64,000 bases of DNA. It comes from Thysanoteuthis rhombus. Its lineage: Eukaryota > Mollusca > Cephalopoda > Oegopsida > Thysanoteuthidae. The notes under the pieces were generated by a model. That model made no database searches. It saw only the letters and a list, made by a program, of their open reading frames with translations, and was not told the DNA's origin. The stretch spans positions 62,501 through 126,500 of the forward strand of contig OY735225.1 in assembly GCA_963457665.1 (NCBI GenBank). Direction: 5' to 3'. The position numbers and the translations under genes were made by a program. This document shows positions 12,939 through 63,345 of the stretch, piece by piece (position 1 is the stretch's first letter; every line of letters starts with the position of its first letter).

Positions 12939-15900
12939 TATCACTAGCTTACATTCAAATCACGCTGAAAGTACCAGTACCACCGATGTTAAGCAGCGTC
13001 GAACCTGATCAATACTTAGATGCTAAAAATGCATTTTCAGCCAATAGAAGCTATTTCCATCAAATTGGGCTAAATCGAAATATACATCAAATCCAACCAA
13101 TTCAATGGTACCGTTGCAATCAGCACGTCAAACTACGCCAGAAAAAAGCCATAAAATCGATAGGTAAAAATGGCATTCAAAATACCATTTTTGACGGTTC
13201 ACTTATGTATGTGCTGGAAGTGCCTTCTCGACCAATAGCAGCTATTTCCATCAAATTGGGCTAGATAAAAAAAAAACATCAAATCCACCCGATCTAATGG
13301 TACCATTGCAATCAGCACGTCAAAGTACACCAGAAAAAGCCATAAAATCAATAGGTAAAAATGACATTCAAAAGACCATTTTTGACAAATCACTTATGTA
13401 TGTGTTAAAAATGAATTTTCGGTCAATATTGGCAATTTCCTTCAGATTGGGCTGAATCGAAAAATACATCAAATCCAGCGATCTAATGGTACCATTGCAA
13501 TCTGCACGTCAAACTACGCCAGAAAAAGCCATAAAATCGATAGGTAAAAATGTCATTCAAAGGACCATTTTTGACGGCTTACTGATGTGTGCGGTAAAAA
13601 TGCATTTTCAGTCAATTTTGGCTATTTCAACCAGATTGGGCTGAATCAAAAATACATCAAATCCACCCGATCCAATGGTACCGTTGCAATCAGCACGTCA
13701 AAGTACACCAGAAAAAGCCATAAAATCGATAGGTAAAAATGACATTCAAAGGACCATTTTTGACAGCTCACTTATATATGCAGTGAAACTGAATTTTCGG
13801 TCAATATTGGCTATTTCCATCAAATTTGGCTGATTCAAAAAAATACATCGAATCCACCCGATCAAATGGTACCGTTGCAATCAGCACGTCAAACTACGCC
13901 ATGAAAAGCCATAAATTCGATAGGTAAAAATGACATTAAAAAGACCATTTTTGACAGCTCACTTATGTATGTGCTGGAAGTGCTTTCTCGACCAATAGGG
14001 GCTATTTTCATCAAATTGGGCTAAATCGGAGAATACATCAAATCCACCCGATCCAATGGTACCATTGCAATCAGCACGTCAAACTACGCCAGAAAAAGCC
14101 ATAAAATCGATAGGTAAAAATGACATTCAAAAGACCATTTTTGACGGCTTACTGATGTTAGCAGCAAAAATGCATTTTCGGTCAATATTGGCAAATTCCA
14201 TCAAATTGGGCTGAATCGAATAATACATTAAATCCATCCAATCCAATGGTACCGTTGATATCAGCACGTCAAACTACGCCAGAAAAAGCCATAAAATTGA
14301 TAGGTAAAAATGACATTCAAAAGACCATTTTTGACAGCTTACTGATGTGTGCGGCAAAAATGCATTTTTGGTAATAATTGGCTATTTCCATCAAATTGGG
14401 CTTAATCGAAAAATACATCAATTTCATCCGATCCAATAGTACCGTTGCAATCAGCACATCAAAGTACGCCAGAAAAAACCATAAAATCGATAAGTAAAAA
14501 TGACATTCAAAACACCATTTTTGACAGCTCACTTATGTATGTGCTTGAAATGCCTTCTCGACCTATAGGGGCTATTTCCATCCAATTGGGCTGAATCGAA
14601 AAATGCATCAAATTCACCCAATCCAATGGTACCGTTGCAATCAGCACGTCAAACTACGCCAGAAAAAGCCATAAAATCGATACGTAAAAATGACATTCAA
14701 AAGACCATTTTTGACGGCTTACTGATGTGGGCGGTAAAAATGCATTTTCGGTCAATATTGTGTAATTCAATCAAATTGGGCTGGATCGAAAAATACATTG
14801 AATCCACCCGATCCAATGGTACTGTTGCAATCAACACGTCAAACTACACCAGAAAAAGCCATAAAATCCATAGGTAAAAATGACATTCAAAACACCATTT
14901 TTGACGGCTCACTTATGTATGTGCTGGAAGTGCCTTCACGACCAATAGGGGCTAATTTAATCAAATTGGGCTGAATCGAAAAATACATCAAATCCACCCG
15001 ATCCAATGGTACCGTTGCAATCAGCACGCCAAACTACGCCAAAAATAGCCATAAAATCGATAGGTAAAAATGACATTCAAAAGACAATTTTTGACAGCTT
15101 ACTGATAAGTGCAATAAAAATGCATTTTCGGTCAATATTGGCTATTTCTATCAAATTGGGATGAATCGAAAAATACATCAAATCCACCCGATCCAATGGT
15201 ACCGTTGCAATCAGCACGTCAAACTACGCCAGGAAAAGCCATAAAATCAATAGGTAAAAATGACATTCAAAAGACCATTTTTGACGGCTTACTGATGTTA
15301 GCAGCATAAATGCATTTTCGGTCAATATTGGCTATTTCCATCAAATTGGGATGAATCGAAAAATACATCAAATCCACCCGATCCAATGGTACCGTTGCAA
15401 TCAGCACGTCAAACTACGCCAGGAAAAGCCATAAAATCGATAGGTAAAAATGACATTCAAAAGACCATTTTTGACAGCTTACTGATGTGTGCAGTAAAAA
15501 TGCATTTTCGGTCAATATTGGCTATTTTGATCAAATTGGTCTAAATCAAAAAATACATCAAATCCACCCGATCCAATGGTATCGTTGCAATCAGCACGTC
15601 AAACTACGCCAGAAAAAGCCATAAAATCGATAGGTGAAAATGTCATTCAAAAGATCATTTTTTACAGCTCACTTATGTATGTGCTGGAAGTGCTTTCTCG
15701 ACCAATAGGGGCTATTTTCATCCAATTGGGCTAAATCGAAAAATACATCAATTTCATCCGATCCAATGGTACCGTTGCAATCAACATGTCAAACAACGCC
15801 AGAAAAAGCCATAAAATCGATGGGTAAAAATGACATTCAAAAGACCACTTTTGATGGCTCACTTATGTATGTCCTGGAAGTGCCTTCTCAACCAATAGGG

Positions 15901-18900
15901 GGTATTATCATCAAATAGGGCTGAATCGAAAAATACATTAAATCCACCCAATCCAATGGTATCATTGCAATCAGCACGTCAAACTACGCCAGACAAAGCC
16001 ATAAAATCGATAGGTAAAAATGACATTCAAATGACCATATTTGACGGCTTACCGATGTGTGCGGCAAAAATGCATTTTTGGTAATAATTGGCTATTTCCA
16101 TCAAATTTGGCTGAATCGAAAAATACATCAAATCCGCCCGATCCAATGGTACCGTTGCAATCAGCACGTCAAAGTACGCCAGAAAAAACCATAAAATCGA
16201 TATGTAAAAATGACATTCAAAACACCATTTTTGACAACTCACTTATGTATGTGCTTGAAATGCCTTCTCGACCTATAGGGGCTATTTCCATCAAATTGGG
16301 CTGAGTCGAAAAATACATCAAATCCACCCGATCCAATGGTACCATTGCAATCAGCACGTCAAACTACGCCAGAAAAGGCAATAAAATCGATAGGTAAAAA
16401 TGACATTCAAAAGATAATTTTTGAAGGCTTACTGATGTGTGCAGTAAAAATGCATTTTCGGTCAATATTGGCTATTTCCATCGAATTGGGCTGAATCGAA
16501 TAATACATAAAATCCACCCAATCCAAGGGTACCATTGCAATCAGCACGTCAAACTACGCCGGAGAAAACCATAAAATTTATAGGTAAAAATGACATTCAA
16601 AAGACCATTTTTGACGGCTCACTTATGTATGTGCTGTAAGTGCCTTCTCGACCAATCGGGGCTATTTTGATCAAATTGGGGTCAATCAAAAAATAAATCA
16701 AATCCACCCGATTCAATGGTACCGTTGCAATCAGCACGCCAAACTACGCCAGAAAAAGCCATAAATTCGATAGGTAAAAATGACATTCAAAAGACAATTT
16801 TTGACGGCTTACTAATAAGTGCAATGAAAATGTATTTTCGGTCAATATTGGCTATTTTGATCAAATTGGTCTAAATCAAAAAATACATCAAATCCACCTT
16901 ATCCAATGGTACCGTTGCAATCAGCACGTCAAACTACGCCAGAAAAAGCCATAAAATCGATAGGTAAAAATGACATTTAAAAGACCATTTTTGACAGCTC
17001 ACTTATGTATGTGTTGGAAGTGCCTTCTCGACCAATAGGGGCTATTTTCATCCAATTGGGCTGAATCGAAAAATACATCAAATCCACCCGATTCAATGGT
17101 ACCATTGCAATCAGCACGTCAAACTACGCCAGACAAAGCCATAAAATCGATAGGTAAAAATGACATTCAAAAGACCTTTTTTGACTGCTTACTGATGTGT
17201 GCGGTAAAAATGCATTTTTAGTAATAATTGGCTATTTCCATCAAAATCGGCTGAATCGAAAAATACATCAAATCCACCCGATCCAATGGTACCGTTGCAA
17301 TCAGCACGTCAAAGTACGCCAGAAAAAACCATAAAATCGATAAGTGAAAATGACATTCAAAAGACCATTTTTGACAGCTCACTTATGTATGTGCTTGAAA
17401 TGTCTTCTCAACGTATAGGGGCTATTTCCATCCAATTGGGCTGAATTGAAAAATGCATCAAATCCACACGATCCAATGGTACCGTTGCAATCAGCACGTC
17501 AAACTACGCCAGAAAAAGCCATAAAATCAATAGGTAAAAATGACATTCAAAAGACCATTTTTGACTGCTTACTGACCTGTGCGGTAAAAATGCATTTTTG
17601 GTCAAGATTAGCTATTTCCATCAAATTAGGCTGAATCGAAAAATACATCAAATCCACCCGATCCAATGGTACCCCTGCAATCTGCACGTCAAACTACGCC
17701 AGAAAAAGCCATAAAGTCGATTGGTAAAAATGACATTCAAAAGACCATTTTTGACGGCTTACTGATGTGTGCAGTAAAAATGCATTTTTTGGGTCAATAT
17801 TGGCTATTTCCATCAAATTGGTCTGAATGGAGAAATACATCAAATCCACCCGATTTGATGGTACCGTTGCAATCATCACGTCAAACTACACCAGAAAAAG
17901 CCATAAAATCCATAGGTAAAAATGACATTCAAAAGATCATTTTTGACAGCTCACTTATGTATGTGCTGTAAGTGCCTTCTCGACCAATAGGGGTTATTTC
18001 CATCAAATTGGGCTGAATCAAAAAATATATCAAATCCACCCGATCCAATGGTACCGTTGCAATCAGCACGTCAAACTATGCTAGAAAAAGTAATAAAATC
18101 GATAGGTGAAAATGACATTCAAAAGACAATTTTTGACAGCTTACTGATGTGTGCGGTAAAAATGCATTTTTGGTCAATATTGGCTATTTCCATCAAATTG
18201 GGCTGAATCGAAAATTACATCGAATCCATCCAATCCAATGGTACCGTTGCAATCAGCTCGTCAAACTACGCAAGGAAAAGCTATAAAATCGATAGGTAAA
18301 AATGACATTCAAAAGACCATATTTGATGGCTTACTGATGTGTGCTGTAGAAATGCATTTTCGGTCAATATTCTCTATTTCCATCAAATTGGGCTGAACGG
18401 AAAAATACATCAAATCCACCCGATCCAATGGTACTGTTGCAATCAGCACGTCAAACTACGCCAGAAAAAGCCATAAAATCGATAGGTAAAAATGACATTC
18501 AAAAGACCATTTTTGACGGCTTACTGATGTGTGCGGTAAAAATGCATTTTCGGTCAAAATTGGCTATTTCCATCAAATTGGACTGAATCGAAAAATACAT
18601 CAAATCCACCTTATCCAATGGTACCCCTTCAATCAGCACGTCAAACTACGCCAAGAAAAAACCATAAATCGATAGGTAAAAATGACATTAAAAAGACCAT
18701 TTTTGACGGCTCACTTATGTATGTGCTGGAAGTGCCTTCTCGACCAATGGCGGCTATTTTCATCAAATTGGGCTGAATCGAAAATACATCAAATCCACCC
18801 AATCCAATGGTACCGTTGCAATCAGCACGTCAAACTACGCTAGAAAAAGCCGTAAAATCGATAAGTAAAAATGACATCCAAAAGACCATTTTTGACGGTT

Positions 18901-19396
18901 TACTGATGTCTGCAGTAAAAATGCATTTTTTGGTCAATATTGGCAAATTCCATCAAATTGGGCTTAATCGAAAAATACATCAAATCCACCCGATCCAATG
19001 GTACCGTTGCAATCAGCACGTCAAACTATGCCAAAAAAAGCCATAAAATCGATCGGTAAAAATGACATTCAAAAGACCATATTTGACGGCTTTCTGATGT
19101 GTGCAGTAAAAATTTATTTTCAGTCAATATTGGCTATTTCCATCAAATTGGGCTGAGTCGAAAAATACATCAAATCCACCCGATCCAATGGTACCGTTGC
19201 AATCAGCACGTCAAACTACGCCAGAAAAAGCCATAAAATCGATACGTAAAAATGACATTCAAAAGACCATTTTTGATGGCTCCCTGATGGAAGTGCCTTC
19301 TCGACCAATAGCAGCTTTTTCCATCAAATTGGGCTGAGTCGAAAAATACATCAAATCCACCCGATCTAATGGTACCGTTGCAATCAGCACGTCAAA

Positions 19397-22300
19397 CTAC
19401 GCCAGAAAAAGCCATAAAATCGATACGTAAAAATGACATTCAAAAGACCATATTTGATGGCTTACTGATGTGGGCAGTAAAAATGCATTTTTGGTCAATA
19501 TTGGCTATTTCCATCAAATTGGGCTGAATCGAAAAATACATCGAATCCACCCGACCCGATGGTACCGTTGCAATCATCACATCAAACTACGACTACGACC
19601 GTTGCAATCAGCACGTCAAACTACGCCAGAAAAAGCCATAAAATCGATAGGTAAAAATGACATTCAAAAGATCATTTTTTATGGCTCACTCACGTATGTG
19701 CTGGCATTGCCTTCTCGACCAATAGGGTCTATTTCCATCAAATTGGGCTGAACGGAAAAATATATCAAATCCACCCGATCCAATGGTACCGTTGCAATCA
19801 GCACGTCAAACTACGCTAGAAAAAGCCATAAAATCGATAGGTAAAAATGACATCCAAAAGACCATTTTGACGGTTTACTGATGTGTGCAGTAAAAATGCA
19901 TTTTCGGTCAATATTGTGTGTGTCCATCAAATTGGGCTGAATCGAAAAATACATTGAATCCACCCGATCCAATGGTACTGTTGCAATCAGCACGTCAAAC
20001 TACACCAGAAAAAGCCATAAAATCTATAGGTAAAAATGACATCCAAAAGACCATTTTTGACGGCTCACTTATGTATGTGCTGGAAGTGCCTTCACGACCA
20101 ATAGGGGCTAATTTAATCAAATTGGGCTGAATCGAAAAATACATCAAATCCACCCGATCCAATGGTACCGTTGCAATCAGAACGTCAAACTACGCCAGGA
20201 AAAGCCATAAAATTGATAGGTAAAAATGACATTCAAAAGACCATTCTTGACAGCTTACTGATGTGTGCGGTAAAAATGCATTTTCGGTCCATATTGGCTA
20301 TTTCCATCAAATTGGGCTGAATCGAAAAATATATCAAATCCACCCGATCCAATGGTACCGTTGCAATCAGCACGTCAAACTACGCTATAAAAAAGCCATA
20401 AAATCGGTAGGTAAAAATGACATTCAAAAGACCATTTTTGACGGCTTACTGATGTGTGCGGTAAAAATGCATTTTCGGTCAATATTGTGTATTTCCATCA
20501 AATTGGGCTGAATCGAAAAATACATCAAATCCACCCGATCCGATGTTACCGTTGCAATCATCACGTCAAACTACGCCGGGAAAAGCCATAAAATCGATAG
20601 GTAAAAATGACATTAAAAAGACCATTTTTGACAGCTCACTTATGTATGTGCTGTAAGTGCCTTCTCGACCAATGGCGGCTATTTCCATCAAATTGGGCTG
20701 AACGGAAAAATATATCAAATCCACCCGATCCAATGGTACCGTTGCAATCAGCACGTCAAACTACGCTAGAAAAAGCCGTAAAATCGATAGGTAAAAATGA
20801 CATCCAAAAGACCATTTTTGACGGTTTACTGATGTGTGCAGTAAAAATGCATTTTTGGTCAATATTGGTGAATTCCATTGAATTGGACTGAATCGAAAAA
20901 TATATCAAATCCACCTGATCCAATGGTACCGTTGCAATCAGCACGTCAAACTACGCCAGAAAAAGCCATAAAATCGATAGGTAAAAATGACATTCAAAAG
21001 ATCATTTTTTACGGCTCACTCATGTATGTGCTGGAAGTGCCTTCTCGACCAATAGGGTCTATTTCCATCAAATTGGGCTGAACGGAAAAATACATCAAAT
21101 CCACCCGATCCAATGGTACCGTTGCAATCAGCACGTCAAACTACGCCAGAAAAAGCCATAAAATCGATACGTAAAAATGACATTCAAAAGACCATTTTTG
21201 ATGGCTCCCTGATGGAAGTGCCTTCTCGACCAATAGCAGCTTTGTCCATCAAATTGGGCTGAGTCGAAAAATACATCAAATCCACCCGATCTAATGGTAC
21301 CGTTGCAATCAGCACGTCAAACTACGCTATAAAAAAGCCATAAAATCGGTAGGTAAAAATGACATTCAAAAGACCATTTTTGACGGCTTACTGATGTGTG
21401 CGGTAAAAATGCATTTTCGGTCAATATTGTGTATTTCCATCAAATTGGGCTGAATCGAAAAATACATCAAATCCACCCGATCCGATGTTACCGTTGCAAT
21501 CATCACGTCAAACTACGCCGGGAAAAGCCATAAAATCGATAGGTAAAAATGACATTAAAAAGACCATTTTTGACAGCTCACTTATGTATGTGCTGTAAGT
21601 GCCTTCTCGACCAATGGCGGCTATTTCCATCAAATTGGGCTGAACGGAAAAATATATCAAATCCACCCGATCCAATGGTACCGTTGCAATCAGCACGTCA
21701 AACTACGCTAGAAAAAGCCGTAAAATCGATAGGTAAAAATGACATCCAAAAGACCATTTTTGACGGTTTACTGATGTGTGCAGTAAAAATGCATTTTTGG
21801 TCAATATTGGTGAATTCCATTGAATTGGACTGAATCGAAAAATATATCAAATCCACCTGATCCAATGGTACCGTTGCAATCAGCACGTCAAACTACGCCA
21901 GAAAAAGCCATAAAATCGATAGGTAAAAATGACATTCAAAAGATCATTTTTTACGGCTCACTCATGTATGTGCTGGAAGTGCCTTCTCGACCAATAGGGT
22001 CTATTTCCATCAAATTGGGCTGAACGGAAAAATACATCAAATCCACCCGATCCAATGGTACCGTTGCAATCAGCACGTCAAACTACGCCAGAAAAAGCCA
22101 TAAAATCGATACGTAAAAATGACATTCAAAAGACCATTTTTGATGGCTCCCTGATGGAAGTGCCTTCTCGACCAATAGCAGCTTTTTCCATCAAATTGGG
22201 CTGAGTCGAAAAATACATCAAATCCACCCGATCTAATGGTACCGTTGCAATCAGCACGTCAAACTACGCCAGAAAAAGCCATAAAATCGATACGTAAAAA

Positions 22301-23993
22301 TGACATTCAAAAGACCATATTTGATGGCTTACTGATGTGGGCAGTAAAAATGCATTTTTGGTCAATATTGGCTATTTCCATCAAATTGGGCTGAATCGAA
22401 AAATACATCGAATCCACCCGACCCGATGGTACCGTTGCAATCATCACATCAAACTACGACTACGACCGTTGCAATCAGCACGTCAAACTACGCCAGAAAA
22501 AGCCATAAAATCGATAGGTAAAAATGACATTCAAAAGATCATTTTTTATGGCTCACTCACGTATGTGCTGGCATTGCCTTCTCGACCAATAGGGTCTATT
22601 TCCATCAAATTGGGCTGAACGGAAAAATATATCAAATCCACCCGATCCAATGGTACCGTTGCAATCAGCACGTCAAACTACGCTAGGAAAAGCCATAAAA
22701 TCGATAGGTAAAAATGACATCCAAAAGACCATTTTGACGGTTTACTGATGTGTGCAGTAAAAATGCATTTTCGGTCAATATTGTGTGTGTCCATCAAATT
22801 GGGCTGAATCGAAAAATACATTGAATCCACCCGATCCAATGGTACTGTTGCAATCAGCACGTCAAACTACACCAGAAAAAGCCATAAAATCTATAGGTAA
22901 AAATGACATCCAAAAGACCATTTTTGACGGCTCACTTATGTATGTGCTGGAAGTGCCTTCACGACCAATAGGGGCTAATTTAATCAAATTGGGCTGAATC
23001 GAAAAATACATCAAATCCACCCGATCCAATGGTACCGTTGCAATCAGAACGTCAAACTACGCCAGGAAAAGCCATAAAATTGATAGGTAAAAATGACATT
23101 CAAAAGACCATTCTTGACAGCTTACTGATGTGTGCGGTAAAAATGCATTTTCGGTCCATATTGGCTATTTCCATCAAATTGGGCTGAATCGAAAAATATA
23201 TCAAATCCACCCGATCCAATGGTACCGTTGCAATCAGCACGTCAAACTACGCTATAAAAAAGCCATAAAATTGGTAGGTAAAAATGACATTCAAAAGACC
23301 ATTTTTGACGGCTTACTGATGTGTGGTAAAAATGCATTTTCGGTCAATATTGTGTATTTCCATCAAATTGGGCTGAATCGAAAAATACATCAAATCCACC
23401 CGATCCGATGTTACCGTTGCAATCATCACGTCAAACTACGCCGGGAAAAGCCATAAAATCGATAGGTAAAAATGACATTAAAAAGACCATTTTTGACAGC
23501 TCACTTATGTATGTGCTGTAAGTGCCTTCTCGACCAATGGCGGCTATTTCCATCAAATTGGGCTGAACGGAAAAATATATCAAATCCACCCGATCCAATG
23601 GTACCGTTGCAATCAGCACGTCAAACTACGCTAGAAAAAGCCGTAAAATCGATAGGTAAAAATGACATCCAAAAGACCATTTTTGACGGTTTACTGATGT
23701 GTGCAGTAAAAATGCATTTTTGGTCAATATTGGTGAATTCCATTGAATTGGACTGAATCGAAAAATATATCAAATCCACCTGATCCAATGGTACCGTTGC
23801 AATCAGCACGTCAAACTACGCCAGAAAAAGCCATAAAATCGATAGGTAAAAATGACATTCAAAAGATCATTTTTTACGGCTCACTCATGTATGTGCTGGA
23901 AGTGCCTTCTCGACCAATAGGGTCTATTTCCATCAAATTGGGCTGAACGGAAAAATACATCAAATCCACCCGATCCAATGGTACCGTTGCAAT
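19397..23993. repeat. 2.87-kb offset block duplication inside the satellite
   Basis: About 19397-21125 recurs at about 22264-23993 with an offset of 2867 bp, including a distinctive partial-unit duplication ('ACTACGACTACGACCGTTGC' near 19588 and 22455). A few differences exist, such as a 3-bp loss near 23325. About 24000-24360 again resembles 19801-20190. Confidence 0.8.
20381..22264. repeat. 942-bp direct duplication inside the satellite (5 monomers)
   Basis: 20381-21322 and 21323-22264 are almost identical, sharing a diagnostic CGCTATAAAAAAGCC start and differing by isolated bases (for example CAGCTTTG versus CAGCTTTT). Five monomers moved as one unit, a higher-order repeat much younger than the monomers. 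Confidence 0.85.
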
Positions 23994-24860
23994 CAACACG
24001 TCAAACTACGCTAGAAAAGCCATAAAATCGATAGGTAAAAATGACATCCAAAAGACCATTTTTGACGGTTTACTGATGTGTGCAGTAAAAATGCATTTTC
24101 GGTCAATATTGTGTGTGTCCATCAAATTAGGCTGAATCGAAAAATACATTGAATCCACCCGATCCAATGGTACTGTTGCAATCAGCACGTCAAACTACAC
24201 CAGAAAAAGCCATAAAATCGATAGGTAAAAATGACATCCAAAAGACCATTTTTGACGGCTCACTTACGTATGTGCTGGAAGTGCCTTCACGACCAATAGG
24301 GGTTAATTTAATCAAATTGGGCTGAATCGAAAAATACATCAAATCCACCCGATCCAATGGTACCGTTGCAATCAGAACGTCAAACTACGCCAGAAAAAGC
24401 CATAAAATTGATAGGTAAAAAGGACATTCAAAAGACCATTTTTGACGGCTCACTTATGTATGTCCTAGAAGTGCCTTCTCGACCAATGGGGGCTATTTTC
24501 AGCAAATTGGGCTGAATCGAAAAAATACATCAAATCCACCCGATCCAATGGTACACTTGCAATCAGCACGTCAAACTACGCCAGAAAAAGCCATAAAATC
24601 GATAGGTAAAAATGACATTCAAAAGACCATTCTTGACAGCTTACTGATGTGTGCGGTAAAAATGCATTTTCGGTCAATATTGGCTATTTCCATCAAATTG
24701 GGCTGTATTGAAAAATACATCAAATCCACCCGATCCAATGGTACCGTTGCAATCAGCACGTCAAACTACGCTAGAAAAAGCCATAAAATCGGTAGGTAAA
24801 AATGACATTCAAAAGACCATTTTTGACGGCTTACTGATGTGTGCGGTAAAAATGCATTTT

Positions 24861-25081
24861 GCTCTGTCTCTTCATTGCACAGGCCACATCCATTAGGGTA
24901 ACAATGTTTCGTTTCGTCCGTACAGTTTAGGTGATGGCAACACATGGTTTAGACAAGAGATACGCCTAGTAGCAGCCCTGCTACCCGGATGGTGGGTAGC
25001 AATCTTGTTGATACCCTGACTGTGTGACTTGAGGTGACGCTTGTTGCCTCCTTTTCCCAAATGTTTTGCACTCGGAGACAT
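24861..25081 (-). pseudogene. Histone H4-like pseudogene truncated by the satellite array
   Basis: From the ATG at 25081 the minus strand reads MSPSAKHLGKGGNKRH, then SHSQGINKIATHH, then TRRISCLN. This is the best-preserved canonical H4 tail in the window (compare the LGKGGAKRH and KRISGL landmarks of H4). Most of the long central histone helix is deleted, about 54 nt by comparison with the 35-kb copy, and the frame shifts. The following frame gives TLMDVACAMKRQS, matching the third helix of H4. The gene then stops dead at 24861, where satellite begins, so the C-terminus and 3' stem-loop are gone. Upstream it keeps TATAAA in the context AGCTGTATAAA and the start context CATTCATCATGTC. Confidence 0.85.
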
Positions 25082-25127
25082 GATGAATGCTTGTAGCTGA
25101 AGTGTCTGAATAGATGGATAATATCAC

Positions 25128-26993: not shown

Positions 26994-27269
26994 ATGTCTA
27001 AACGAGGAGAAGGAAGCGTAAATGGTGATCGTCAGTTTGACAATAATGACAGCAAGCCTGCTACCAACCGTTTGGCTTGCAGGTGTGGTGATCAGTGTAA
27101 ATTTGATCCAGAATACGAGGCGACCCATCAGGTCGAGATTTACATTACAATGGTTGTCCATGGTATCATCTCTCACGCTGTGCTGACCAACAAGGAAACT
27201 ATCACCATAATGGATGTTGACTATGCGCTCAAGAAAAATGGAAGAGCTTTCTTCGGATTGGGAGGTTAG
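26994..27269 (+). CDS. Divergent histone H4-like protein, copy A
   Basis: A 91-aa intact frame (H4 is 103 aa). Residues 21-32 (KPATNRLACRCG) match the first histone-fold helix of H4 (KPAIRRLARRGG). About 39-66 (PEYEATHQVEIYI through SHAVL) is the long helix, and ITIMDVDYALKKNGR followed by FFGLGG is the third helix and C-terminus, close to H4 TAMDVVYALK and YGFGG. About 12 residues are lost relative to H4: part of the tail and the YTEHA loop. The tail (MSKRGEGSVNGDRQFDNN) has lost nearly all acetylatable lysines. A nucleosomal role is inferred from the fold only. TATA box, short leader and histone 3' stem-loop support transcription as a replication-dependent histone. No intron. The ATG sits in TCATCATGTC, shared by its relatives. 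Three extra Cys (29, 31, 35) are unusual for H4. Confidence 0.85.
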   Translation: MSKRGEGSVNGDRQFDNNDSKPATNRLACRCGDQCKFDPEYEATHQVEIYITMVVHGIISHAVLTNKETITIMDVDYALKKNGRAFFGLGG

Positions 27270-27292
27270 ACATTGAAATATTGTCACTAAAC

Positions 27293-27308
27293 GGCCCTTT
27301 TTAGGGCC
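27293..27308 (+). promoter_or_regulatory. Histone mRNA 3' stem-loop
   Basis: GGCCCTTTTTAGGGCC: six perfect base pairs around a four-T loop, 23 nt after the stop and followed by ACCCA. This is the SLBP-bound 3' end signal of metazoan replication-dependent histone mRNAs. A purine-rich AGGAAAAG follows about 12 nt later, in the place of the histone downstream element bound by U7 snRNA. Confidence 0.92.
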
Positions 27309-27419
27309 ACCCACTTTCTAGGAAAAGTTTATTCACTTCTTACAAGAAATGCAGTAGAATGTTTATCTAATATGGCTACATATTAGATTGTGACTTCAAA
27401 ATGGAGTAGTTTTCCTTCG

Positions 27420-27728: not shown

Positions 27729-27959
27729 TACAAGTTCAACTGCAAGCCTCTTACACGCCGTCGTTCTCGCAAAGTTCGTGTCCAGCGTACATCTATTGTC
27801 GAATACGAAGGAAATCGACTGTTTAGAATTTACCGAGAGAAAGTTATCCGTGATGCAGTCTCCATTGCCGAGCAAGCCGAAAGAGAGTATGTCAGCTTCG
27901 TGGATTTGTTCGATGCACGCAAGAAAAATATCAGATTTCTGTGTGGCCTGGGCGGTTAA
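27729..27959 (+). pseudogene. Headless histone H4-like gene, copy A
   Basis: An open stretch of 76 codons without a start codon: YKFNCKPLTRRRSRKVRVQR, then VEYEGNRLFRIYREKVIRD, AVSIAEQAEREYVSFVDLFD and FLCGLGG. It aligns through all three H4 histone-fold helices (H4 landmarks KPAIRRLARR, VIRDAV, TAMDVV, YGFGG) and is Arg-rich at its start. An in-frame TAA immediately precedes it, and the tail, ATG and promoter are replaced by an inverted H4 trailer. It ends with a proper stop and stem-loop. The histone-fold part is uninterrupted, so the break is recent or the piece is used some other way. Confidence 0.8.
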
Positions 27960-28799: not shown

Positions 28800-28922
28800 G
28801 TAGTAGCTGGGGGCATAGTTGCCTTTGCGAAGAAAACGGTTGATTACAACAGACAAGGTCGCATGGGATCAGTGAGTCTTACTTTTCCCCGTTAATTTCC
28901 CTCCCTTACCACGCCATGACAT
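28800..28922 (-). pseudogene. Histone H2A N-terminal relic
   Basis: From ATG at 28922 the minus strand reads MSWRGKGGKLTGKSKTH-stop, then SHATLSVVINRFLRKGNYAP. It follows the H2A landmarks SGRGKGGK, GKAKTRSSRAGLQFPV and RLLRKGNYA. A TGA at codon 18 and loss of everything after KGNYA make it dead. It is divergent from the H2B relic that starts at 29156, the usual animal H2A-H2B pair arrangement. Confidence 0.7.
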
Positions 28923-35170: not shown

Positions 35171-35460
35171 TTAACCTCCCAGGCCGTACAGAGTTCTGCT
35201 GTGATTATTAAACGCATAAGTCACATCCATTAGGGTGACAGTCTCACTGTGGGCCCGTATGGCGTAGGAGACAGCATCACGGATAACGATCTCAAAGTAA
35301 ATCTGAAAAACGTGGTGGGTCGCTTCATAGTTTAGACCAGATGTAGCTGAACACGAACTTTGCGGCTGAGATGGCGGGTAGCAGGCTTGCAATTGTACTT
35401 GTGTAGGTAAGAATGACGATTGGCACCTCTCCTTCGTAATCTTCTCCTACATGTAGTCAT
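35171..35460 (-). pseudogene. Histone H4-like gene with Arg-rich tail and one-base frameshift
   Basis: From ATG at 35460: MTTCRRRLRRRGANRHSYL, then KYNCKPATRHLSRKVRVQ in one frame; then SGLNYEATHHVFQIYFE, IVIRDAVSYAIRAHSETVTL, MDVTYAF and RTLYGLGG in the next. The second part is very close to H4 (VIRDAVTY, TVTAMDVVYAL, RTLYGFGG). Comparison with the 27.7-kb copy places the lesion at CAGCGTACATCT against CAGCTACATCT near 35345, a single missing base. The tail is Arg-rich, almost protamine-like, where H4 has GK repeats. TATA box and leader are kept but the stem-loop is decayed. A sequencing error at one base would make it an intact gene of about 96 aa. Confidence 0.85.
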
Positions 35461-35515
35461 GATGAACGTTCCAAGCTGAAAATCATCCGAAGTACCCGAA
35501 TGGGTGAAGCATATC

Positions 35516-37363: not shown

Positions 37364-37639
37364 ATGTCTAAACGAGGAGAAGGAAGCGTAAATGGTGATC
37401 GTCAGTTTGACAATAATGACAGCAAGCCTGCTACCAACCGTTTGGCTTGCAGGTGTGGTGATCAGTGTAAATTTGATCCAGAATACGAGGCGACCCATCA
37501 GGTCGAGATTTTCATTACAATGGTTGTCCATGATATCATCTCTCACGCTGTGCTGACCAACAAGGAAACTATCACCATAATGGATGTTGACTATGCGCTC
37601 AAGAAAAATGGAAGAGCTTTCTTCGGATTGGGAGGTTAG
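37364..37639 (+). CDS. Divergent histone H4-like protein, copy B
   Basis: A 91-aa frame identical to copy A (26994-27269) except Tyr50 to Phe and Gly57 to Asp, both in the long central helix. These are the only two nucleotide differences I see in 276 bp, and both change the protein. The Asp at 57 matches the Asp of the VIRDAV motif in canonical H4, so copy B may carry the older residue. Promoter, leader and stem-loop are preserved as in copy A. Its role is inferred only from the histone fold. Confidence 0.85.
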   Translation: MSKRGEGSVNGDRQFDNNDSKPATNRLACRCGDQCKFDPEYEATHQVEIFITMVVHDIISHAVLTNKETITIMDVDYALKKNGRAFFGLGG

Positions 37640-37662
37640 ACATTGAAATATTGTCACTAAAC

Positions 37663-37678
37663 GGCCCTTTTTAGGGCC
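37663..37678 (+). promoter_or_regulatory. Histone mRNA 3' stem-loop, copy B
   Basis: GGCCCTTTTTAGGGCC followed by ACCCA, unchanged from copy A, with AGGAAAAG downstream. Confidence 0.92.
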
Positions 37679-37789
37679 ACCCACTTTCTAGGAAAAGTTT
37701 ATTCACTTCTTACAAGAAATGCAGTAGAATGTTTATCTAATATGGCTACATATTAGATTGTGACTTCAAAATGGAGTAGTTTTCCTTCG

Positions 37790-38092: not shown

Positions 38093-38319
38093 AGTTCAAC
38101 TGCAAACCTCTTACACGCCGTCATTCTCGCAAAATTCGTGTCAAGCGTACATCTATTGTTGAATACGAAGGAAATCGACTGTTTAGAATTTACCGAGAGA
38201 AAGTTATCCGTGATGCCGTCTCCATTGCCGAGCAAGCTGAAAGAGAGTATGTCAGCTTCGTGGATTTGTTCGATGCACGCAAGAAAAATATCAGAATTCT
38301 GTGTGGCCTGGGCGGTTAA
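38093..38319 (+). pseudogene. Headless histone H4-like gene, copy B
   Basis: Same structure as 27729-27959 with a few substitutions (HSRKIRVK, RILCGLGG). In this copy the upstream TAA is absent, so the frame is open leftward to a GTG at 38047 through the inverted trailer. That extension is not histone-like, and GTG is an unlikely start in animals. No promoter. The histone fold is intact. Confidence 0.75.
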
Positions 38320-39129: not shown

Positions 39130-39255
39130 AAATGTAGTAGCTGGGGGCGTTGTTGCCTTTGCGAAGAAAACGGTTGATTACAACAGACAAGGTCGCATGG
39201 GATCAGTGAGTCTTACTTTTCCCGTTAATTTCCCTCCCTTACCACGCCATGACAT
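39130..39255 (-). pseudogene. Histone H2A N-terminal relic, copy B
   Basis: Counterpart of 28800-28922. MSWRGKGGKLTGK is followed by a one-base deletion (CCCG where copy A has CCCCG), so the frame is lost. KGNY codons remain near 39150. Confidence 0.65.
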
Positions 39256-42098: not shown

Positions 42099-42230
42099 AT
42101 GTAATGTCGTGGCAAGGGAGGAAAAGTAACTGCATAAAGTAAGACTCGTTCACCTCACGTGACCCTGTCCGTTGTAATCAACCGTCTTCTTTGCAAAGGC
42201 AACTATGCCCCCAGCTACTACATTTTAGAG
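42099..42230 (+). pseudogene. Histone H2A N-terminal relic
   Basis: M-stop-CRGKGGKVTA-stop-SKTRSPHVTLSVVINRLL, then CKGNYAP. The H2A landmarks RGKGGK, KTRS, RLL and KGNYA are readable. TAA at codon 13 is shared with the other plus-strand relics, and TAA at codon 2 is private. Confidence 0.75.
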
Positions 42231-43395: not shown

Positions 43396-43403
43396 ACTTA
43401 GAA

Positions 43404-45487
43404 TGTATGTGCTAGAAATGCCTTCTCGACCAATAGAAGCAATTTTCATCAAATTGGGCTAAATCAAAAAATGCATCAAATCCATCAGATCCAATCGTAC
43501 CGTTGCAATCAGCACGTCAAACTAAGCCAGAAAAAGCCATAAAATCGATAGGTAAAAATGATATTCCAAAGACCATTTTTGACGGCTCACTTATTTATGT
43601 GCCAGAAGTGTTACCTCGACCAATAGCGGCTATTTCCAACAAATTGGGCCTAATCGAAAAATATATCAAATCCACCCGATCCAATGGTACCGTTGCAATC
43701 AGCATGTCAAACTACGCCAGGAAAATCCATAAAATCGATGAAAATGACATTCGAAAGACCAATTTTGACAGCTTACTTGTGTATGTGGTAGAATTGCCTT
43801 CTCGGTCAATTATGGCTATTTCTTTCAAATTGGGCTAAATCGAAAAATATATAAAATGCAGCTGATCCAATGGTACTGTTGCAATCAGCACGTCAAACCA
43901 TGCCAGAAAAATCAAGAAAATATAGGTAAAAATTATATTCAAAGAAGCATTTTTGACAGTTCACTTATGTATGTGCTAGAAATACCTGCTCGGTCAATCA
44001 CAGTTATATCCGTGAAATTGAGCTGAATCAAAAACTACATAAAATACAGCCTATCCAATGGTACTTTTGCAATCTGCACGTCTAACTACGCCAGAAAAAT
44101 CCATGAAATCGATAGGTAAAAATGACATTCAAAAGACCATTTTTGACGGCTTACTTATGTATGTGCTACGAGTGCCTTTTCCACCATCAGCTGCTATTCC
44201 AATCAAATTGTTTTAAATCAAAAATACATCGAATCTTGCTGATCCAATGGTACTGTTGCAATCAGCACGTCAAAATACGCCAGAAAAGCCATACAATCGA
44301 TGGGTAAAAATGACATTCAAAAGACCATTTTTGATGGCTTACTTTTGTTGAGCTTGGAGTGCCTTAGCGACCAACAGCAGCTATTTCCCTCAAAATGTGC
44401 TAAATCGAAAAATACATCATATGCAGCCGAGGCAATGGTACTGTTGCAATAAGCACGCCGAATTACGCCAGAAAAAGCCATGAAATCGATAGGTGAAAAT
44501 GACATTCGAAAGACCAGTTTGACAGCTTACTTATATATTTGCTAGAAGCCCCTTTTCGAACCAAAGCGGCTATTTCTATCGAATTGGGCTAAATTGAAAA
44601 ATAAATCAAATCCAGCCGATCCAGTTACATTCGAGACAACATTTTTGACAGCTTACTTGTGTATGTGCCAGAGGTGCCTTCTCAGTCAATTTTGGCTATT
44701 TTCGTCAAATTAAGCTAAATCGAAAAATACATCTAATGCAGCCGATCCAATGGTACAGTTGGAATCAGCATGTCAAACCATGCCAGAAAAAGCCATAAAA
44801 TCGATAGGTAAAAATGACATTCGAAGGAGCATTTTTGACGGCCATTTCATGTATGTGCTAGAAGTGCCTATTTGGTCAATAACGGCTATTTCCGTGAATA
44901 TGGGCTAAATTGAGAAGTACATCGAATACAGCCAATCCAATGGTACCGTTGCAATCTGCATGTCGAAATAAGCCAGAAAAAGCCATAATATAATGAGGTG
45001 AGAAAAAATTCAAAAGACCATTTTTAGGGCTTACTTATGTATATCCTAGAAATGCTTTCTCGGTCGATAGTGTCTATTTCCATCAAATTTGGCTAAATGA
45101 GAACTACGTCAATAACAGCTGATCCAATTGTACTGTTGCAATCAGCACGTCAAAGTAAGCCACAAAAAGCCATAGAATCGATAGTTAAAAATGACATTTG
45201 AAAGAGAACTTTTGAATGCCCACTCATGTATTTTCTAAAAGTGCCTTTCAGTCAAATCGGGCTGAATCGAAAACTATATCAAATACAGCCGATCCAATCG
45301 TACCATTGCAATCAACACGTCAAACTACACCAGAAAAAGCCACAAAATTGATAGGTAAAAATGACATTCAAAAGACCATTTTTGAGGGCTCACTTATGTA
45401 TGTGCTAAAAGTGCGTTCTCGGTCGATAGTGGCTTTTTCCGTCAAATTGGGCTAAATCGAGAACTATATCAAATCCAGCCGATATAC
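43404..45487. repeat. Diverged 190-bp satellite block
   Basis: About eleven monomers of the 13-24.9 kb satellite (GTACCGTTGCAATCAGCACG, CATAAAATCGATAGGTAAAA), much more diverged from each other. It abuts an H4 trailer on the left and a broken H4-like gene on the right. Confidence 0.92.
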
Positions 45488-45507: not shown

Positions 45508-45720
45508 ATGTCAAATTTTTCTTTTGAGAAAATGAATACTTCAGAAGATTTTAACTTACAAACATTCCTCATGTCTGGAGATGAAGAAACTGGAGAGCAG
45601 TTTCAAAATGAACGTGGCAAGAGTCATCGAGAGATACTCAGAGATTATGTTCAGGGTTCCAACCTTTCACTGATCAAGGGAGAAGGTGATCTCAAATCAA
45701 AAATTTGTTCTGATAAGTGA
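45508..45720 (+). pseudogene. 5' half of an acidic-tail H4-like gene (plus strand)
   Basis: The gene's own ATG is at 45571 (CATTCCTCATGTCTGGAG). It reads MSGDEETGEQFQNERGKSH, then REILRDYVQG and LIKGEGDLKS, then leaves the histone sequence. The 129 bp 45571-45699 is an inverted copy of 46054-45926. An upstream in-frame ATG at 45508 adds 21 non-histone residues. After the break the DNA matches 59820-59935 inverted. No promoter or stem-loop. Confidence 0.75.
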
Positions 45721-45800: not shown

Positions 45801-45834
45801 AAAAAAAATTGTAGAATTTAATCATTAATTAAAG

Positions 45835-46054
45835 ACTTGTAAGCATACATTGCATTTGCAGCATTACGGGCTAGAATTTTAGAGCAACGTTCACGTCGTT
45901 CCTCATCAGATTTAAGCGCTGAAAGTGATTTGAGATCACCTTCTCCCTTGATCAGTGAAAGGTTGGAACCCTGAACATAATCTCTGAGTATCTCTCGATG
46001 ACTCTTGCCACGTTCATTTTGAAACTGCTCTCCTGTTCCTTCGTCTCCAGACAT
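45835..46054 (-). pseudogene. 3'-truncated acidic-tail H4-like gene (minus strand)
   Basis: From ATG at 46054 it encodes 78 residues matching the 63-kb gene (MSGDEGTGEQ, SHREILRDYVQG, DEERRERCSKILARN, AMYAYKSL) with one early difference (Asn31-Leu in place of Asn-Pro). It breaks off at TCTTTAATTA and ends two codons later. The third helix, stem-loop and normal trailer are absent. Promoter with TATA and two E2F-like repeats is intact upstream, so a truncated transcript is possible. Confidence 0.8.
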
Positions 46055-54724: not shown

Positions 54725-57005
54725 ACACACTGGTTGAATTCTTGTTTCCTGTAACTGATGCAACCAGGTTATTTGAACAGGGCCTTAATTTTATAATCCA
54801 TTTCATAATAAAATTCATCTATTGTAAAATTAAAAATGTATGTTCTATTTATGTACGACAAAATTATGTATCTAATACATATATGTTTCAACTTATACAC
54901 TACGTAGAACAATTTTGAACAAAAGAAGAATTGCAATCTTTATTACAACACAAGTACAAATAATTAATACAACATTTTATTGTAACTACATCCCTAAAGA
55001 TTTTCAGCTAACAGCTAAATCATATATAATGTGTCTATACACATACGAACGTATATATATCCAAAAGTTCTTGAATTTTTTTGATTGAGAGATACCTTTT
55101 CGTATCCTCCATACATTTATGTATTCCCACACTTTTGGCCATCCACTATCTCCGAAAGTTATCAAATAATTCCAAAGACATTTTTTCAGGAAGGGATTAG
55201 CCTACTATAGAGCGTAAAAATCACATTCAGATAAAAATGTAAAAAAAGGTATTATTTTAACTATCACTGAGATATTTTTGTTTTTTGGTTGTAGTTTCTT
55301 AGATGAAGGTAAAGAAATTGGAGAAAATGGACAAAAATATTTCCGTGAATATGAGCTATCTTGGAAAATACATTGAAAATAGGAAAACCAATGATATCAT
55401 TGGAATCATCTCATCAAACTACATCAGAAACGACCATAAAATCAATATGAAAAAAATGACATTCAAAATCACATTTTTGGCATATATAGGCTATCTCGTA
55501 GACCTGTAATCCCGGTAAATATCAGCTCTTTCCATACATATGAGCTATATCGAAGAATATGTTGAATATAAAAAAATAATGATATCATTGGAATCAGTGC
55601 ATCAAACTACATCAGGGATGTCCATAAAATCGATATGTAGAAAAAGCATTCAAAATCACATTTAAGGCATGTATAGGCTATGTTTTAGAAGTGCATTTGA
55701 AGCAAATATCGGCTATTTGCAAGAATTGCATTTTCAAAAAATATGACCAATCTAAAAAAATACATCGAATATAGCAAAACCAATGACATCATCGGAATCA
55801 ATGCATCAAATTTCATCAAAAACTCACATAAAATCAATATGTAAGAATGACATCCGAAATCACATTTTTGGTATGTATAGGCCATGTCGTAGAACTGCAT
55901 TTCTGGCCAATATCGGCAATTTCTGTGATTATGAGCTATCTCGAAAAATATATCGAATATAGCAAAACTAAGGACATCATTGGAATCAGGGCATCAAACT
56001 ACATCAGAAACAACCATAAAATCGATATGCAAAAATGACATTCATAATCACATTCTGGCATGTGGCAAAAGTTCATTTGAAGCAAATATCGGCTATTTGC
56101 AAGAATTGCATTTTCCGAAAATATCAGCTAACTCAAAAAATACATTGAATATAGCAAAACCAATAACTTCAATCGAATCAGTGGTTCAAACTACATAAGA
56201 AACGACCATAAAATTGATATGTAAAAATGACATCCAAAATCACATTTTTGGCATGTATAGGCTGTGTCGTACAACTGCATTCCAAGCCAATATTGGCTAT
56301 TATCTGTGAATATGAGCTATCTCGACAAATACATAGAATATAGCAAAACCAATGACATCATTGGAATCAGTGCACAAAACTACATAAGAAACAACTATAA
56401 AATCGATATGTATGATTGACATTCAAAATCACATTTTTGGCATGTATAGGCTATGTCATAAAACTGCATTTCCAGCAAATATCGGCTATTTGCAAGAATA
56501 GCATTTTCCAAAACTATGAGCTAACTCAAAAAACAAATCGAATATGGCAAAACCAATAACATCATTGGAATCAGTGCATCAAACTAGTGGTTGAATTCTT
56601 GTTTCTCATAACTGATGCAACAAGGTTATTTCAACTGGGTCTTAATTTTACGATTAATTTCACAATACATCTATTGTAAAATTAAAATCATATGTTCTAT
56701 TTATGTACGACAAAATTCTGTATTCGATATATATTTTTGTGCACTTATATACTAGGCATGAACAATTTTAGAGAAAGAAGAATTACGATCTATATTATTA
56801 TCTCCGACTGGTATCATTGAATTCAGATGACATTTTGTCAAGAAGGTGTTGGCCTACTATAGAGTATAAGGATCACATTGAGATTAGAAATGTAAAAAAA
56901 TGTCCATATAAAATCCTTGTACTCTTTCACTGAGATATTTTTGTTTCTCAGATGTTGTTTCTTAGACGAAGGTGAAAAATTGAATAAAATTGACAAAAAT
57001 ATTTA
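54725..57005. mobile_element. Satellite-bearing repeat flanked by direct copies
   Basis: 54729-54950 (TGGTTGAATTCTTGTTTC, CTATTTATGTACGACAAAAT) recurs at 56588-56760. 55180-55330 (GCCTACTATAGAG, CTGAGATATTTTTGTTT) recurs at 56840-57000. Between them lies a satellite block. The layout resembles molluscan mobile elements that carry an internal tandem-repeat core. The class is inferred. Confidence 0.5.
55330..56587. repeat. 190-bp satellite block, distinct subfamily
   Basis: About six to seven monomers. GACATTCAAAATCACATTTTTGG-like steps (core ACATTCAAAATCACATTTT) occur at about 55457, 55649, 55849, 56037, 56229 and 56418, about 190 bp apart. CATCAAACTACATCAGAAAC and CCATAAAATCGATATG link it to the blocks at 1-1075 and 13-24.9 kb. 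Confidence 0.88.
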
Positions 57006-62600: not shown

Positions 62601-62695
62601 TTTTCTCAGATTTCAAAATTATAGAGCGACTTCTTTGAGTAAGAGTGTACTATACATGTTGTAACTATGAGAAAAAGTTTTCGGAGAAAGTGGGT

Positions 62696-62711
62696 GGCCC
62701 TGAAAAGGGCC
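62696..62711 (-). promoter_or_regulatory. Histone mRNA 3' stem-loop of the acidic-tail H4
   Basis: GGCCCTTTTCAGGGCC on the minus strand, about 50 nt after the stop, followed by ACCCACTTTC and a purine-rich GGAGAAAG-complement region (CTCCGAAAAC). Perfect consensus. Confidence 0.92.
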
Positions 62712-62759
62712 GTTATGAGTAAATATGTTTTATATTTACTCGCTGAAACTTTACAGAGA

Positions 62760-63065
62760 TCAGCGTTGTGTCTTGATGGCATGGACAATGTCCAACGCAC
62801 ACACGGGATCTTTGACGATGTTTTTGCCATCACGAATAATTAAAGACTTGTAAGCATACATTGCATTTGCAGCATTACGGGCTAGAATTTTAGAGCAACG
62901 TTCACGTCGTTCCTCATCAGATTTAAGTGCTGAAAGTGATTTGAGATCACCTTCTCCCTTGATCAGTGAGGGGTTGGAACCCTGAACATAATCTCTGAGT
63001 ATCTCTCGATGACTCTTGCCACGTTCATTTTGAAACTGCTCTCCTGTTCCTTCGTCTCCAGACAT
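62760..63065 (-). CDS. Acidic-tail histone H4-like protein
   Basis: A 101-aa intact frame from ATG at 63065. The tail [19 protein letters not shown] is acidic where H4 has [30 protein letters not shown] matches H4 [27 protein letters not shown] through AMYAYKSL takes the place of the long helix, and [12 protein letters not shown] matches TAMDVVYALKRQGR. It lacks the C-terminal TLYGFGG used to dock H2A, because CGA became TGA; the ancestral codons are still readable after the stop. Promoter (four E2F-like units, CCAAT, TATA) and stem-loop are the best preserved in the window. H4 membership is inferred from collinear landmarks, and chromatin function is not demonstrated. A 3'-truncated twin lies at 45835-46054. 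Confidence 0.85.
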   Translation of the reverse strand: [101 protein letters not shown]

Positions 63066-63345
63066 GATGAATGCTTGGTATTGAAAATATCTTATGAACT
63101 GGCTGACTGATAGCTTTCCTTTTTATACAGCTCCGATATTAGTTTAACAGGCAGCAGTCAGCGCAGAACGTAGGCTCCTAGTTCAGGTGTGTGCTTAGTT
63201 GAATTTTCATTGGTTACAAATTACACACATTTTTGTTTTTGAAAATTTGAGCGCGAAAATATCAGCAGTTTGAGCGCCAAAATATCAGCAGTTTGAGCGC
63301 GAAAATATCAGCAGTTTGAGCGCGAAAATATCAATAGTTTGCAAG
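63066..63345 (-). promoter_or_regulatory. S-phase-type promoter with four tandem E2F-like sites
   Basis: A 23-bp unit is repeated four times (63246, 63269, 63292, 63315). Three units contain GAGCGCGAAAA (E2F consensus TTTTCGCGC on the minus strand) and one has GCGCC. CCAAT lies at 63209-63213 in GTAACCAATGAAAA, AGGAGCCTACG near 63168-63178, and TATAAAAAG near 63120-63128 in GAGCTGTATAAAAAGG. The ATG context is CATTCATCATGTC. Confidence 0.8.

Follow-up and report, generated by a model that had tools for sequence, protein, structure and literature searches.

Histone orphons, the dispersed derivatives of histone genes that lie outside the main clusters, are usually relics. Variants of histone H4 have been described as rare (PMC10878826, PMC8015243). 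Human H4G (H4.7, H4C7) is an H4 paralogue without the C-terminal tail and is said to be nucleolar (PMC10878826, PMC8015243). The testis-specific H4t of Oikopleura dioica, called the first reported animal variant by its authors, has three residues changed relative to H4 (PMC3156773). In fungi, H4E is a divergent paralogue of H4 that is retained clade-wide with its own intron/exon organisation and whose function is not known (PMC10878826); the passages on H4E in that source make no mention of a histone stem-loop or of subtelomeric amplification. Trypanosoma brucei has a specialised variant, H4V, that is 80% identical to the organism's own canonical H4 (PMC10878826). As far as these sources describe them, none of H4t, H4G, H4E and H4V combines with an amplification or an acidic tail of the kind reported below. 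The literature matches listed included no H4 variant that was cephalopod or subtelomeric, and no paper combining 'histone h4 variant' and 'cephalopod' was found.

The DNA analysed here, called the window, is a stretch of 64,000 nucleotides of the oegopsid squid Thysanoteuthis rhombus (C30:62501-126500 in an assembly that comprises 514 contigs and 2.73 Gb). At 62760..63065 on the minus strand, stop included, it carries a 101-codon H4-derived ORF with an acidic tail, recognised by its intact frame and its similarity to H4. This ORF is very probably a member of a multicopy, H4-derived family of protein-coding genes located mostly near chromosome ends, within which it belongs to the subfamily designated A. 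A selected H4-derived protein with an acidic tail is unexpected, H4 being among the least variable of animal proteins. Like H4G, the squid protein is truncated at its C-terminus, but it does not otherwise keep an H4-like core: its identity to H4 is about 38% over aligned residues, compared with about 85% for H4G, from which it also differs in its acidic tail, in an insertion in helix 2 and in its dozens of copies. It resembles H4t in being an animal variant, H4E in being a divergent paralogue and H4V in its probable specialisation. The family is dispersed like the orphons, but unlike these its subfamily A is under purifying selection.

The frame from the ATG at 63065 down to 62760 (-) is intact and encodes 101 amino acids, as the initial annotation had stated, and its similarity to H4 chains in the PDB is weak, the best match having E 5.7e-4. 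When a human H4 sequence was run against the window by tblastn, without composition correction, the acidic ORF was matched at E 2.9e-6. The acidic tail also stands: residues 1-21 contain five acidic and three basic residues (net -2), in place of the basic N-terminal tail of a working H4, while the entire protein has a net charge of +3 and a pI of 9.0. A protein of the second subfamily, B (copy L070), matches H4 in the PDB at E 3.8e-9, so that the family descends from H4 and does not resemble it by chance. Comparison of a profile of the acidic family with a five-sequence alignment of H4 and H4-like proteins gave a probability of 28.4%, against at most 0.52% in all 20 column-shuffled controls. 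A chance ORF was ruled out by the H4 similarity of the window and B proteins together with the histone 3' stem-loop. A viral histone was also considered; 32 stretches in a viral contig collection fitted a search pattern and none was confirmed as a relative. In Pfam the window protein had no match up to E 1, and two B-type proteins, two of the family termed fam3 and one of the family termed fam2 had none above the cut-off; this says little, because fam3, which is clearly H4-like, escaped Pfam as well. For neither the acidic protein nor fam2 did protein-database searches return a homologue, though squid proteins may be few there.

The history of the gene can be followed by comparison with the canonical H4 of the same genome, which is identical to human H4 in seven of the eight loci read (97% in the eighth) and is accompanied by a divergently placed H3 gene in seven of the eight, with none at L001. 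A DNA alignment of a canonical locus (L005), an A locus (L017) and a B locus (L070) is continuous over promoter, ORF and stem-loop. The acidic gene evidently originated from a replication-type H4 gene and was inherited together with the promoter modules and 3' stem-loop. In this alignment helix 2 has gained 11 codons, next to a segment that resembles IRDA, and there is a two-codon deletion; helix 1 of subfamily A lacks three codons and its arginines are gone. The codon for R95 has changed from AGA to TGA, and a second stop stands at the position of Y98. The stop deprives the protein of the last eight residues of H4 (RTLYGFGG), and a relic of this end can be read beyond it at 62739..62759 (-), as SL*SFSE where H4 has TLYGFGG and as SL*DFSD in several other copies. 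R45 is replaced, and so are K79 and R92 if the gaps of the DNA alignment are right. Protein alignments give 11 to 13 inserted residues and a four-residue deletion, and HMMER spreads the difference otherwise; of this, the net gain of residues alone is firm, its exact placement varying with the alignment.

The basic patch KRHRK of H4 has been partly replaced and reads KSHRE in the acidic protein. A 13-residue segment that aligns with its H4 counterpart is kept in all five members compared. Judged by alignment, most of the working surfaces of H4 are lost, namely the basic tail, the helix-1 arginines, R45 and the C-terminal RTLYGFGG. With helix 1 shortened, helix 2 enlarged and the end gone, the protein falls short of the complete H4 fold with C-terminal tail that a working H4 has, and the proposal in the initial annotation of a nucleosomal H4 altered by a reversal of tail charge alone is not supported. 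An AlphaFold model, whose input alignment consisted of window sequences only and was itself poor, reached a pLDDT of 52.6 and a pTM of 0.32, so that the histone fold stays predicted only. The low-confidence helices of the model (residues 19-29, 38-45, 50-78 and 90-99) follow one another in an order resembling that of H4.

The initial annotation had also described a full histone-gene setting, and its promoter elements and 3' stem-loop are found at the locus. On the minus strand, a TATA box lies 62 bases upstream of the ATG (63120..63127) and a CCAAT box 148 bases upstream (63209..63213), both identified from the sequence and from comparison of loci. Further upstream, about four tandem copies of a 23-bp unit with an E2F-like GCGC core occupy 63246..63341 (-); 12 other aligned loci have two, one or no copies of this unit. 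Judged by eye, the canonical H4 genes of the same genome have the same kinds of upstream element. Downstream of the frame, the histone 3' stem-loop GGCCCTTTTCAGGGCC (62696..62711 (-)) lies inside an Rfam Histone3 match at 62672-62716 (-) that scores 37.6 bits (E 2.1e-7; gathering cut-off 34). It is followed by CTTTCTCCGAAAACT (62676..62690 (-)), a stretch resembling the histone downstream element that may act as one; the canonical locus L005 has CTTTCTACGAAAAGT in its place. One open frame, from which the absence of introns was read, and a histone 3' stem-loop are the marks of a replication-dependent histone gene, and both are present.

These elements are common in the family. A stem-loop pattern that tolerates one or two changes is present in 42 of 50 family loci; of the eight others, L036, L078, L084 and L085 have a stem-loop that by eye is slightly different, L070 has one with an altered loop, and none was seen in L086-L088. 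The TATA box is found 42-63 bases upstream in 27 of the 32 A-type loci with an open CDS, and the remaining five (L015, L016, L027, L031 and L069) have neither TATA nor upstream homology. In these five and in L082, homology to the window locus begins 23-33 bases before the ATG. This breakpoint is recurrent and replaces the promoter.

The gene does not stand alone and is one of dozens of copies, most of them near contig ends. The initial annotation had missed this multiplicity, as well as the rebuilding of the core, the loss of the C-terminal end and the window's further H4-like sites. A search of the squid's own genome with the window protein returned 57 matches. Full length and freedom from stops are combined in 39 of them, and 12, counting that of the window, encode an identical protein. 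Several family copies are interrupted by stops. Among the 54 matches on chromosome-size contigs (C45, for example, measures 38 Mb, and C64 0.12 Mb), 43 lie at most 1 Mb from a contig end, across 16 different ends, two lie about 1.16 Mb from an end and the other nine occupy interstitial positions on C26, C37 and C39. Five contig ends were read. TTAGGG repeats stand at two of them (the start of C3 and the end of C11), and the others consist of satellite of the 190-bp type (C30), Ns (C10) and other sequence (C40). The A-type genes sit inside longer segments that they have in common with the window locus, with an identity to it of about 91-97% in the main ones, so the acidic gene is carried along in duplicated blocks. 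Subfamily B retains helix-1 sequence such as LIRRLARKGG and looks nearer to H4, or to the ancestor, than A. The window contains two further acidic H4-like copies: one at 45827..46054 (-) that is truncated at its 3' end and retains the upstream region, and a partial, inverted one at 45540..45699 (+) in which homology stops short of the promoter.

The window's subfamily A is under clear purifying selection. The initial annotation had treated the gene as apparently expressible and had counted a ratio near 1 of nonsynonymous to synonymous rates (omega) against this reading; the ratio found in A is well below 1, as would be expected of a constrained gene. The 41 CDS collected reduced to 27 unique sequences and, after L080 was dropped for its shifted end, to 26 (18 A and 8 B); L073, which has a stop and 95 codons and is not full-length, was retained among the latter. 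For the 18 sequences of A, omega was 0.167 (lnL -700.66, against -717.16 at omega 1; LRT 33.0). Constraint on the eight B sequences is weak (omega 0.53, LRT 5.5), and for all 26 together omega was 0.342 (LRT 31.3 against omega 1). In the fits at omega 1, kappa was scanned over a grid and the tree was fixed. None of these values is the ratio near 1 of a pseudogene, and it is subfamily A that carries the argument for selection.

Site counts agree for A. Across 31 A-type loci, the variable sites at first, second and third codon positions number 7, 4 and 23 (101 sites each), third positions thus varying about four times as often as the other two; the 3'UTR has 10 variable sites in 48. Upstream densities of 77/115 and 20/35 were set aside, since in four of the 31 loci the upstream sequence is unrelated. 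Among the variable codons of A, 20 have synonymous changes only and 13 have nonsynonymous ones, which for an expected synonymous share of 0.24-0.30 gives a binomial P of 7e-6 to 2e-4 (0.05-0.24 for B). Within codons 1-30 of A the counts by position are 1, 0 and 5. When A and B were pooled with four stop-containing copies, 29 sequences in all, no third-position excess was found (41, 36 and 44 variable sites over codons 1-100). L069 was left out of both the 29-sequence and the 31-locus counts because its upstream region differs. Between A and B, pS is 0.018 and pN 0.073 in codons 1-30, compared with 0.279 and 0.106 in the remainder. Conservation of the tail between the subfamilies was therefore rejected as proof of protein selection, synonymous sites being nearly unchanged too, and their near-identity suggests gene conversion or constraint at the DNA level. 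Gene conversion among the copies is likely, and perhaps only some of them are functional.

The acidic family is accompanied by others. Two intact genes of fam2, a divergent H4-like family 38% identical to H4 over aligned residues, lie at 26994..27269 (+) and 37364..37639 (+), with stem-loop matches at 27288-27333 and 37658-37703, respectively, and with a promoter motif, TTACTACTACGTCCGCA, that resembles that of canonical H4. When 150 of 262 candidates in the squid's own genome were scored, at least 41 fam2 matches were without stops, covered at least 90 of 91 residues and had 84-100% identity; at least 25 of these lie at C45:12.52-13.16 Mb, and fam2 is also found on C14 and C13. The stem-loop pattern is present in 29 of 30 fam2 loci, for which omega was 0.59 (LRT 5.2), and fam2 is less constrained than subfamily A. 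Locus L089 (10 kb, C45:13147001-13157000) has, along with two H2A-like fragments, three intact H4-like genes that belong to the fam2 and fam3 types and are all provided with a stem-loop; its two intact fam3 genes share 52% and 45% of their aligned residues with H4. The presence of fam2 and fam3 beside the acidic family, of which acidic A/B and fam2 proved to be multicopy, implies that several H4 lineages have diverged within this genome. It is conceivable, and we suggest it with reserve, that oegopsid squids maintain, in parallel, three or more H4-like families of rapid divergence (A/B, fam2 and fam3) that share histone 3' stem-loops with canonical H4 and serve a special chromatin state, for example in the germ line or at chromosome ends, with the acidic member acting as an anti-nucleosomal or open-chromatin protein.

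Other histone pieces of the window are broken. They comprise fam3-type pieces without a 5' part (27744-27956 and 38104-38316, both (+)) or frameshifted (35174-35490 (-)), a broken H4-like relic with a histone-type promoter that abuts a satellite array (24858-25082 (-)), and H2A- or H4-like N-terminal fragments (28812-28922 (-), 39217-39255 (-) and 42108-42209 (+)), the two longer of which have a stop.

Taking these data together, the explanation that we favour, with some confidence, is a selected multicopy H4-derived family whose protein has a specialised role other than that of bulk H4. The abundance of such broken pieces in the window also suits a different account, in which the ORF is an H4 relic in decay that recent segmental duplications have spread close to chromosome ends, its open frames reflecting recent copying and its constraint the memory of an older functional gene. 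The truncated C-terminus and broken helix 1, the copies with stops, the close similarity of the duplicated segments, the weak constraint on B and fam2 and the loss of the third-position excess when broken copies are pooled are all what such decay would produce. But the low omega, with its LRT of 33, and the roughly fourfold variability of third positions were obtained within A alone, that is, after the rebuilding of the gene, and we consider a decaying relic unlikely. It is somewhat easier to envisage, as a possibility short of our preferred one, that function is confined to a single master copy or a few of them and the others are passengers homogenised by gene conversion. The 12 copies with an identical protein would fit such homogenisation, as would the inverted pairs of C14, C15 and C30, whose members are separated by about 3.7-4.9 kb, and open copies without a promoter exist; A lineages on other contigs nevertheless keep nonsynonymous change low, with synonymous and nonsynonymous differences from the window copy of 12 and 1 for L029, 11 and 4 for L036 and 6 and 5 for L038.

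Quite improbable, in our assessment, is a true nucleosomal H4 variant whose sole change is that its tail is acidic instead of basic. The tail charge, the 13-residue segment kept in every member compared and the H4-like helix order of the low-confidence model would accord with it, but helix-1 residues are deleted, helix 2 has an insertion, and the lost RTLYGFGG belongs to the region of H2A docking and Asf1 binding (PMC3439350). The C-tail of H4 contacts Asf1 and the H2A docking domain, and in yeast the C-tail point mutant G94P remains able to bind Asf1 and to form nucleosomes (PMC3439350), so that an altered C-tail is not an absolute bar. H4 residues 16-24 form the basic patch that meets the acidic patch (PMC10878826). 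With the C-tail lost and this patch partly replaced, a plain nucleosomal role is unlikely for the squid protein. A specialised H4-derived protein made through the mRNA pathway of replication histones appears to fit better than a normal nucleosome with a reversed tail.

For this specialised protein we can offer a mechanism only tentatively. The gene would be transcribed in S phase from its histone-type promoter, and its mRNA would be handled via the stem-loop, as other histone mRNAs are by the SLBP/U7 route. The product would probably not be bulk nucleosomal H4. It would most likely retain some histone-fold pairing through helices 2-3, probably with H3, and would be expected to lack H2A docking, Asf1 binding via the C-tail and acidic-patch stacking as in H4. 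The result may be open or short-lived particles, or a decoy on the chaperone side, limited to certain contexts, for instance the germ line or the early embryo. A selected, amplified family that lacks both the basic tail and the C-tail as well as the arginines of helix 1, existing beside an H4 identical to the human one, suggests that an H4 copy could escape constraint and gain another role, and it makes the dispensability of individual H4 contacts directly testable.

Tandem satellite with a period of about 190/380 bp occupies 13021-24860, 43403-45483 and 55348-56586 of the window, and the first 600 bases of C30 (L090) resemble it. Mitochondrial sequence is also present in the assembly. COX1 is open under the invertebrate mitochondrial code, with two copies on C514, and on C198 COX1 copies recur with a period of 20,544 bases; C198 has the look of a concatemer that the assembly retained. 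The oegopsid Chiroteuthis picteti has a mitochondrial genome of 20,851 bp with six duplicated genes, cox1 included (PMC7800340).
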